A stretch of DNA of 32,158 nt, from the NCBI GenBank assembly GCA_017993055.1, contig JAGONM010000038.1, positions 1 through 32,158 on the forward strand, given 5' to 3'. Made by a program: the position numbers and the translations under genes. Positions 11,510 to 15,533 of the stretch are shown here, one piece after another. This stretch comes from Armatimonadota bacterium (GTDB lineage Bacteria > Armatimonadota > UBA5829 > DTJY01). The notes beneath the pieces were generated by a model that worked only from the letters and a program-made list of their open reading frames with translations, had not been told where the DNA came from and did not search any database. How positions within the stretch are numbered: the first letter of the stretch is position 1; each line of letters starts with the position of its first letter.

Positions 11510-11794
11510 GTGAATGGTAGCAGAACGTCTCTCCCGGAGTCAAGGCTCGGACTTCCCGGCGCGAAGGCGGACCGGACGCAGGCGGCGCTCGACTTCGTGC
11601 TCCGCGCGCTTGCGGATGCGGGCGGGAGCCTTCCCCGGAAGGACCTGATCGAGCTGGCGAAGGTGGAGGGGATTGCCAAGCGCACCCTCGAGATTGCTCT
11701 GAGGGATGCTGTGTGCGCAGGGGAGCTATCAAAGGCGAAGAACGGGCGTGATGTCATCTACAGTCAGGCCGAACCCACGCTGTTGCTCGAGTAG
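11510..11794 (+). CDS. Small winged-helix-like protein or gene remnant
   Basis: A 94-residue ORF that I do not recognise as a named family. From about residue 23 it reads like a compact helical DNA-binding domain: AALDFVLRALADAGGSLPRK, DLIELAKVEGIAKRTLEIAL and AVCAGELSKAKNG. This is the pattern of a small winged helix or of the C-terminal domain of a larger helicase- or replication-type protein. There is no convincing ribosome binding site at the GTG, and its first codons overlap the tldD promoter on the other strand. It could be a decayed 3' fragment of a longer gene. Codons from about 11560 onward look genuinely coding (GC-rich third positions). Confidence 0.4.
   Translation: MNGSRTSLPESRLGLPGAKADRTQAALDFVLRALADAGGSLPRKDLIELAKVEGIAKRTLEIALRDAVCAGELSKAKNGRDVIYSQAEPTLLLE
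11514..11543 (-). promoter_or_regulatory. Promoter of the tldD operon
   Basis: TTGACT (11543-11538) and TACCAT (11519-11514) are separated by 18 bases on the minus strand. The -35 box matches five of six positions and the -10 box four of six. The expected start is near 11507, giving a leader of roughly 33 bases to the tldD ATG. Confidence 0.6.
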
Positions 11795-12017: not shown

Positions 12018-12049
12018 CACTTGACAATACTATTATCAAGTGGTATGAT
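12018..12049 (+). promoter_or_regulatory. clpB promoter with HAIR-like operator
   Basis: TTGACA (12021-12026) and TATGAT (12044-12049) are separated by 17 bases, a near-consensus promoter. Overlapping it is the dyad CTTGACA-N7-TATCAAG, extended by CA and TG to 9-bp arms with one mismatch (12018-12042). The HspR operator HAIR is CTTGAGT-N7-ACTCAAG, so the outer five bases and the spacing agree exactly. The left arm covers the -35 box and the right arm reaches the -10 spacer, ideal for repression. Control by an HspR-like MerR-family repressor is inferred; no hspR gene is in the window. Confidence 0.75.
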
Positions 12050-12141
12050 AGCTTCGATTGAGTAGAGTAGGCTCGCGGCCGGAGGGGTATCAACATTCCG
12101 GGCGCACGCGATATCGAGCACGGTTGGAGGGATTTCAACGG

Positions 12142-14742
12142 ATGAGAATGGACAAGTTTACGATCAAGGCACAGGAAGCCGTCCAGGAGGCGCAGAACCT
12201 CGCGGACCGGAACGGGCAACAGGAGATCGGCGCGGAGCACCTTCTTCTTGCATTACTGACGCAGGAGGAGGGCGTCGTCACGCCTGTCCTCCAGAAGATC
12301 GGCGTGGACCCACGCGCGGCTCAGCGACAGGTGGAGGCTCTGCTCGACCGCATGCCTAAGGTCCAGGGCGTCACCGGCCAGGTCTACATCTCGGCCGAGC
12401 TCAAATCCGCGCTCGACAAGGCCTGGGACGAGGCCCAGCGGATGAAGGACGAGTACGTCAGCACGGAGCACCTCCTTCTGGCGATCTCCGAGTCGAAGAG
12501 CGAGGCGGGCAACATACTCCGGTCGCTCGGCGCGGCGAAGGACAAGATCCTCCAGGCTCTGACCGACGTACGGGGGACCGCGCGAGTCACCGATCAGAAC
12601 CCCGAGGAGAAGTACCAGGCGCTGGAGAGATACGGCCGCGATCTGACCGAGATGGCGCGCAAGGGGAAGCTCGACCCGGTGATCGGCCGGGACGAGGAGA
12701 TTCGGCGGGTGGTCCAGGTACTGTCCCGGCGCACCAAGAACAACCCGGTGCTGATCGGCGAACCGGGGGTCGGCAAGACGGCGATCGTCGAGGGCCTCGC
12801 GCAGCGCATCGAGTCCGGCGACATCCCCGAGGGACTGAAGGACAAGCGGCTGATCGCGCTGGACATCGGGGGGATGATCGCGGGCGCTAAGTACCGGGGC
12901 GAGTTCGAGGACCGCATGAAGGCCGTTCTTCGCGAGGTCGCGGAAGCCGAGGGCGAGGTCATCCTCTTCATTGACGAGCTGCACACCGTGGTGGGAGCGG
13001 GGGCCGCCGAAGGCGCGGTGGACGCCTCGAACATGCTGAAGCCGATGCTCGCGCGGGGCGAGCTTCGTTGCGTCGGCGCGACCACGCTCGACGAGTACCG
13101 CAAGCACATCGAGAAGGACGCCGCCCTCGAGCGGAGGTTCCAGCCGATCGTCGTAGGGGAGCCGGACGTGGACGACACGATCGCCATACTGCGCGGCCTG
13201 AAGGAGCGGTATGAGGTCCACCACGGCGTGAAGATCAACGACTCGGCGATCGTGGCGGCGGCGGTGCTCTCGCACCGGTACATCGCGGACCGGTTCCTGC
13301 CGGACAAGGCGATTGACCTGATTGACGAGTCCGCGTCACGCCTGCGCATCGAGATTGACAGCATGCCCGTGGAGATAGACGTGATCGAGCGGCGGATCAG
13401 GCAGCTCGAGATCGAGCGCGAGGCCCTGAAGAAGGAGACCGACAAGACCGCCAAGGAACGCCTCGGGAAGCTGGAGAAGGAGCTTGCCGACCTGCGCGAG
13501 CAGAGCGCGGAGATGAAGGCCCACTGGCAGAACGAGAAGGACGTAGTGCGCCGCATCCAGCAGACGAAGGAGCAGATCGAGCAGGCTAGGATAGACCTCC
13601 AGCACGCCGAGCGCGATGCCGACCTTCAGAAGGCCGCCGAGCTCAGGTACGGCACGATGCTCTCCCTCGAGAAGGAACTGGAGGAGCAGACCGCCGGCCT
13701 GGTGGAGGTCCAGAAGGACCGCAAGATGCTCAAGGAGGAGGTGGACGAGGAGGACATCGCCGAGGTCGTGAGCAAGTGGACCGGCATCCCCGTCTCCAGG
13801 ATGATGGAAGGCGAGATGCAGAAACTCGTCCACATGGACGAGCGGCTCAAGGAGCGGGTGGTCGGCCAGGACGAGGCGGTTCAGGCGGTCTCGAATGCCG
13901 TCAGACGCGCGCGAGCCGGCCTGCAGGACCCGAACCGGCCGATCGGGAGCTTCATCTTCATGGGGCCGACGGGCGTCGGCAAGACCGAGCTTGCCCGGGC
14001 GCTCGCGGAGTTCCTGTTCGACGACGAGAAGGCGATGATCCGGCTCGACATGTCCGAGTACATGGAGAAGCATTCGGTCGCGCGGATGATCGGCGCGCCG
14101 CCGGGGTACGTCGGCTTCGAGGAGGGCGGACAGCTCACCGAGGCGGTCCGTCGGAGGCCGTACAGCGTGCTGCTCTTCGACGAGATCGAGAAGGCGCACC
14201 AGGACGTGTTCAACGTGCTGCTCCAGATCCTGGACGAGGGCCGGATGACCGACGGCCAGGGCCGGACGGTCGACTTCAAGAACACGGTGATCATCATGAC
14301 GTCGAACGTCGGCTCGCAGTGGATTCAGGAGATGGCCGGGACCGATGACCGGGAGATGCGGGGCCGGGTCACGGAGGCCCTGCGGGCGCAGTTCCGGCCG
14401 GAGTTCCTGAACCGGCTCGACGAGATCATCATCTTCAACTCGCTCTCGGCCGAGCACATCAAGGCGATCGTCGAGATCCAGCTCGGGTACCTGAGGAAGC
14501 GGCTCGCGGACCGGAAGATCGAGATCGAGGTGACCGACCGGGCGGAACAGGAGCTTGCGGCCGAGGGGTTCGACCCGACCTACGGCGCGCGCCCGCTCAA
14601 GCGGACGATCCAGAAGCGGATCCAGGACCCGCTTGCGATGAAGATCCTGGAGGGCGAGTTCCACGACGGCGACCGCATCACCGTGGACGCGCTCGATGGG
14701 GAGTTCGCCTTCACCCGGGCGGTCGCGGCAGAGGTTGGGTAG
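12142..14742 (+). CDS. clpB: ATP-dependent disaggregase ClpB
   Basis: An 866-residue Hsp100 chaperone that, with DnaK, extracts polypeptides from aggregates. The Clp N-domain spans about 1-145 ([16 protein letters not shown]). NBD1 has Walker A GEPGVGKT (206-213) and Walker B VILFIDE. A long coiled-coil middle domain (about 400-530) distinguishes ClpB from ClpC. NBD2 has Walker A GPTGVGKT (about 609-616) and Walker B SVLLFDE. The C-terminal domain ends at residue 866. The ATG at 12142 was chosen because GGAGG lies 11 bases upstream; a second ATG at 12148 would give the usual [10 protein letters not shown] start. A diverged copy of its last 38 codons lies at 15568-15684, beyond an inserted two-gene cassette. 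Confidence 0.97.
14626..14742 (+). repeat. Direct repeat, copy 1: functional clpB 3' end
   Basis: The last 38 codons and stop of clpB recur at 15568-15684. By hand count 101 of 117 bases match, including a 41-base identical block starting at 14649, and 33 of 38 residues match. Most of the early differences are synonymous, so the two copies derive from two functional clpB genes and not from recent decay. Confidence 0.9.
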
Positions 14743-14824: not shown

Positions 14825-15145
14825 ATGAACCCTCAGACCGCCGAACAACTGGATGAACTGGTCAAGCGCATAGTGGATGCCGTCCATCCACTGAGAATCA
14901 TTCTTTTCGGTTCCGCCGCAAGGAATGAAATGGGTCCTGATAGCGATGTGGATGTATTGGTCGTGATGCCGGATGGGACTGACCGCCTGGAGGTCGCACA
15001 GTACCTGCACACGCAGTTCTTCGGGATACCTCTCGCAGTTGACGTTGTCGTAGCAACCCCGACAGATCTCGCACTCTACGGTCAGAGCATAGGTTTGGTC
15101 TATCGAACCGTGCTCGAAGAAGGCAGGGAGTTGTATGCCGCGTAG
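14825..15145 (+). CDS. MNT-type minimal nucleotidyltransferase (antitoxin of a MNT-HEPN pair)
   Basis: A 106-residue Pol-beta superfamily nucleotidyltransferase. The core motif GSAARNEMGPDSDVDVLV (residues 29-46) supplies Gly-Ser and the metal-binding Asp41 and Asp43, and Asp73 in AVDVVV is the probable third carboxylate. All three catalytic acids are therefore kept. Proteins of this size next to a HEPN gene are usually antitoxins; in MntA-HepT systems they inactivate the HEPN toxin by adding AMP. The gene overlaps the HEPN gene by 11 bases. Its base composition and codon use are less GC-rich than clpB, and it sits between two clpB 3' ends, both suggesting acquisition. Confidence 0.88.
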   Translation: MNPQTAEQLDELVKRIVDAVHPLRIILFGSAARNEMGPDSDVDVLVVMPDGTDRLEVAQYLHTQFFGIPLAVDVVVATPTDLALYGQSIGLVYRTVLEEGRELYAA

Positions 15146-15533
15146 CCTGGATTCCCCGCTAACGTGGATGGAGTACGCAAAGAGTGACCTGGCGGCCGCC
15201 CGGGGACCTGCTCCCGAGGGTGTAATGCTGGAGATTCTGTGTTTCCATGCTCAGCAGGCCGCAGAGAAGAGCATCAAAGCCGTTCTTGTGGCAAGAGGCG
15301 TACCATTCCCAAGGATACATAGCATTGAGCGCCTCACCGATCTCCTGCCACCCGATATTGCGAGGACAGCCGACGTTCTTGAGTCTGCCCGACTTACTGC
15401 ATATGCGACCGTGTTCCGCTACCCTGGCATGCCGGACCCGGTTTCCGAAGAAAGGTACGACGAAGCCGTTCGTCTCGCTGAAGCCGTCGTCTCCTGGGCT
15501 GAAGAGACCCTGCGGAAGATGAGCGCTTTCTGA
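15135..15533 (+). CDS. HEPN domain protein (putative toxin partner)
   Basis: A 132-residue all-helical HEPN protein of the PF05168 type. Recognisable marks are CFHAQQAAEKSIKAVLVARG (37-56), the PRIHSIERL segment with His62, and FRYPG (94-98) near the C-terminus. The Rx4-6H ribonuclease motif of canonical toxic HEPNs is not obvious; the closest is Arg54 to His62 with seven residues between. It may therefore be a diverged toxin, a non-ribonucleolytic HEPN, or an accessory subunit. The ATG overlaps the end of the nucleotidyltransferase gene by 11 bases, implying translational coupling. It is followed after 34 bases by the duplicated clpB end. Confidence 0.85.
   Translation: MPRSLDSPLTWMEYAKSDLAAARGPAPEGVMLEILCFHAQQAAEKSIKAVLVARGVPFPRIHSIERLTDLLPPDIARTADVLESARLTAYATVFRYPGMPDPVSEERYDEAVRLAEAVVSWAEETLRKMSAF

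Follow-up and report, generated by a model that had tools for sequence, protein, structure and literature searches.

A predicted HspR operator built into the clpB promoter of an Armatimonadota bacterium

In a 32,158-nucleotide stretch of DNA from an Armatimonadota bacterium (contig JAGONM010000038.1; called the window here, at its full length), the promoter of the chaperone gene clpB is overlaid by an inverted repeat, which raises the question of whether this dyad is a plain accident of promoter sequence or the operator of a heat-shock regulator. From its layout, its recurrence in the genome and its conservation in relatives, we consider it very probable that the clpB dyad is an HspR operator, that is, an HspR-associated inverted repeat (HAIR), which forms part of the main sigma-70-type promoter from which clpB is transcribed. 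HspR would repress this promoter until heat is applied, probably with DnaK as its co-repressor.

The dyad and the promoter before clpB

The sequence at 12020-12040, CTTGACA-ATACTAT-TATCAAG, keeps the outer half-sites and the spacing of the HAIR as published, CTTGAGT-N7-ACTCAAG (PMC6102357), in agreement with the original prediction. The dyad noted there does exist, but the extent first given was too short: pairing spans 12018-12042 (CACTTGACAATACTATTATCAAGTG, no strand assigned), forming an extended 25-bp palindrome CACTTGA-N11-TCAAGTG with 11 of 12 pairs matched, in which the −35 box C faces an A as the sole mismatched pair. That the left arm is at the same time the −35 box, as had also been proposed, is borne out by the promoter scan, which places a perfect TTGACA at 12021-12026 (+ strand), within the left arm of the predicted operator. 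The −10 box TATGAT (12044-12049, +) follows 17 bp after the −35 box and 3 bp after TCAAG; it is preceded by TG, and the two boxes together match the consensus at 11 of 12 positions. From the −10 box there are 92 bases to the clpB start codon (ATG at 12142), so that the leader region covers 12050-12141 (+), with transcription probably starting a few bases past the −10 box. The gene itself (12142-14742, +) encodes a full-length ATP-dependent disaggregase of 866 residues, as judged from TIGR03346 (1410.7 bits against a cut-off of 1232.1) and from Pfam.

The bare palindrome is not clearly beyond chance, since about one third of the shuffled windows (6 of 20 dinucleotide shuffles of the 32-kb window) hold one of equal length and pairing. 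No second match to the full dyad pattern was found in the window, and 100 shuffles yielded none. The significance of the dyad comes from its position and recurrence, not from the palindrome alone. When the whole genome was searched (3.72 Mb in 82 contigs, 99.6% complete), the exact sequence CTTGACA-N9-TCAAG was found only twice, at the clpB and dnaK promoters, and the dyad with the promoter attached to it only three times, the third exact match being a promoter before a gene for a major facilitator superfamily (MFS) transporter (C18:30678). As a third target this last site was set aside as probably due to chance, two relatives keeping its TTGACA promoter but not the right arm. All remaining exact CTTGA-N11-TCAAG sites in the genome lie within long open frames, and none of the one-mismatch sites whose sequence was inspected has a convincing −10 box, apart from the one on C18. 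No dyad was present upstream of the second hsp20 gene (C3), and no third site of the lon type was found in the genome.

A palindrome of this kind may also be read on the other strand, where 11 pairs followed by TTTTT were flagged by the scan as terminator-like. The idea that the element is a minus-strand transcription terminator nevertheless seems to us very improbable: only 3 of the pairs in the stem are G-C, the hairpin is not reached from any minus-strand gene, the copy of the dyad at dnaK is without a T run, and terminator-like sites are no commoner here than in shuffled sequence (2 versus 2.5).

The hspR gene and the dnaK cluster

The genome encodes a single protein that matches the HspR model above its cut-off (C51:16241-16606; NCBIfam NF047375, 115.5 bits against 105), and a PF13411 match shows it to be of the MerR type. 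Its gene closes a cluster on one strand of contig C51, in which dnaK (TIGR02350), hsp20 (PF00011), dnaJ and hspR follow one another in this order, with hspR adjoining dnaJ. A second copy of the dyad stands at the dnaK promoter, located 3.8 kb ahead of hspR, and reads CTTGACAACGATGCACTCAAG-TTG-TATAAT; the layout is that of clpB, and the spacing from the dyad to the −10 box is identical at the two genes and also in relatives. Both the hspR-like MerR gene and the second dyad at dnaK, to which the original prediction had pointed, are present, and the dyad is also met at dnaK and clpB of relatives. Among named records, those closest to this HspR come mostly from Armatimonadota, with 60-73% identity for the top matches, which assigns the genome to that phylum. 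When the HspR profile was compared with solved structures, only other MerR-type proteins (for example GlnR) were matched, and no HspR structure.

The following mechanism is proposed. An HspR dimer, produced from the dnaK-hsp20-dnaJ-hspR cluster, would bind the two CTTGA half-sites. These extend over the −35 box and the greater part of the spacer, and bound HspR would block RNA polymerase in unstressed cells. MerR-type activators usually act on longer spacers; since the spacer at clpB has an ordinary length of 17 bp, a repressor that blocks the polymerase fits best. DnaK probably assists HspR as co-repressor, by analogy with Streptomyces, where Bucca and colleagues reportedly assigned it this role in 2000. 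Upon heating, unfolded protein would occupy DnaK and HspR would release its promoters, so that clpB would be induced together with the dnaK cluster, to which hspR belongs.

Conservation across the phylum

On the HspR-bearing contigs of Armatimonadota, the dyad is found at nearly every dnaK, in some cases with one or two mismatches, and lies roughly 85-245 bases before the codons for the DnaK motif GIDLGTTNS. In a wider Armatimonadota set it is present with at most one mismatch in 40 of 53 dnaK upstream regions. The distinct dnaK sites (n = 37) all contain an exact TTGACA, and 34 of them have a −10 box at 17 bp. At clpB, the dyad is kept in all four genomes of the family to which the window belongs, in all five sampled f7 genomes and in several of f2 and f5. 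The consensus of the clpB sites in the wider set is aCTTGAcA...TCAAGTggTATaAT. Three relatives (G117, G019 and G045; loci L177, L176 and L183) have clpB dyads with near-canonical arms (CTTGAGT...ACTCAA), which stand close to the start codon and are not followed by a −10 box where one would normally lie.

Spacer lengths of 5 to 17 were compared by counting matches with at most one mismatch, with a shuffled control. In the dnaK regions, a spacer of 11 was found in 22 of 31, all other spacers gave 0, and 0.2 were expected from shuffles; in the clpB regions, the same spacer was found in 24 of 70, other spacers gave at most 3, and shuffles led us to expect 0.7. These counts bear on the alternative that the clpB site is merely a strong sigma-70 promoter whose −35 box and spacer look palindromic by accident. 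The near-perfect promoter consensus and the ease with which shuffled windows yield such a palindrome both speak for it, but a promoter does not need the right arm, and TCAAG(T) is conserved at a fixed distance at dnaK and clpB of relatives, with other spacings near zero, which therefore indicates an operator. The contrast with the MFS-gene promoter, whose relatives are without the right arm, points in the same direction, and we regard a plain promoter as very unlikely.

The gene order around clpB varies. In many other families clpB stands directly behind hspR, in the dnaK operon; 20 such loci were fetched, dnaK was recognised in 17 of them and in all 17 preceded hspR, the two genes sharing a strand, and in 12 of these 17 a dyad with at most one mismatch precedes dnaK. 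As predicted from these arrangements, clpB is either part of a HAIR-controlled operon or stands apart with a HAIR of its own. HspR itself is matched in 114 of the 121 sampled genomes of the phylum and in 90 of the 92 of good quality.

Several observations weigh against HspR as the regulator and have to be set beside this evidence. The arms at clpB are CTTGACA and TATCAAG, with inner bases CA and TA where the canonical HAIR has GT and AC; at dnaK (CTTGACA and ACTCAAG) only the right arm is of the textbook form. The full canonical Streptomyces arms do not strictly define a HAIR, and the published sites of Helicobacter pylori are imperfect as well. In the phylum sample, the site occurs within one mismatch in only 20 of 69 clpB upstream regions, many of the others having clpB behind hspR. 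Seven of the 121 genomes have no HspR match, two of them of good quality (G034 and G114). The first, a close relative, carries the dyad at clpB and dnaK, and its hspR was probably lost to assembly, because the contig ends inside dnaK; in G114 neither an HspR match nor dnaK was found. Outside the phylum, L062, L065, L067, L072 and similar loci of Acidobacteriota and Actinomycetota carry both hspR and dnaK, yet the 400 bases ahead of dnaK contain no CTTGA-N11-TCAAG.

The deviating inner bases might suggest that the dyad belongs to a different repressor, such as HrcA, CtsR or another MerR-type protein, and resembles a HAIR by convergence. Candidates are at hand, for HrcA is encoded in the genome (contig C5) and two other MerR-like matches are present. 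The scores of the latter are, however, far below that of HspR, and neither was seen in a chaperone cluster. The operator of HrcA, the controlling inverted repeat of chaperone expression (CIRCE), is distinct and located elsewhere: the pattern TTAGCACTC-N9-GAGTGCTAA has one match genome-wide, upstream of groES, where the site reads TTAGCACTC-N9-GAGTGCCAG (G000 C48:21521-21547; L194 1501-1527), and this genome-wide pattern search found no CIRCE at clpB. The dyad, moreover, tracks the hspR-encoding operon across the phylum. A different repressor is accordingly improbable in our view. Since hrcA is accompanied by a CIRCE before groES, each repressor appears to have its own share of the chaperone genes, with predicted HAIR control at dnaK and clpB and CIRCE at groES.

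For the phylum as a whole, we lean towards a history in which HspR is the ancestral and near-universal repressor of dnaK and clpB. In several families clpB would have its place behind hspR in one HAIR-controlled operon, while in the class of the window and in some others it would stand alone, with a separate HAIR merged into the −35 box, so that control outlasted the change in gene order. The roughly one hundred genomes thus suggest a regulon in which a target gene that moves out of the operon still has the operator.

The neighbours of clpB in the window may be mentioned here. Ahead of it, a 94-residue frame (11510-11794, +) resembles a PaaX-like winged helix weakly, with a score under the cut-off, and right behind clpB (14825-15533, +) lie a small nucleotidyltransferase gene (PF01909) and a HEPN-domain gene (PF05168), arranged as in HEPN/MNT toxin-antitoxin pairs.

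Comparison with known HspR systems

The type of switch is itself textbook, a known bacterial heat-shock mechanism; for Armatimonadota, no description of it was found in the open-access literature. The original prediction had called HspR little described in this lineage, and this agrees with that literature, which joins HspR with no cultured Armatimonadota genus; there, HspR and Armatimonadetes co-occur in a single paper, which names each once, on another subject. For a phylum of which very few members are in culture, the locus offers a heat-shock circuit that is concrete and can be tested.

The closest parallel is the HspR/HAIR regulon of Streptomyces (the dnaK operon, clpB and lon), with which the present system shares the association of hspR with the dnaK operon, the outer half-sites and their spacing, and the targets dnaK and clpB (PMC6102357, PMC2687793). 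In contrast to the three dyads at dnaK in Streptomyces, there is one per promoter here; the inner arms are CA/TA, the left arm is a perfect TTGACA −35 box, and no lon-like third site was found. In Deinococcus radiodurans, HspR likewise acts at promoter-proximal HAIR sites as the repressor of dnaK, clpB and further chaperone genes (PMC6888292, PMC2687793). Its regulon is larger, including hsp20, ftsH and lonB, whereas only two target promoters were found here. In H. pylori and Campylobacter jejuni, as in the present genome, HspR with HAIR-like sites coexists with HrcA (PMC6102357, PMC7464140); there both repressors act jointly on shared promoters, whereas here their sites look separate, CIRCE lying at groES and the predicted HAIR at dnaK and clpB.
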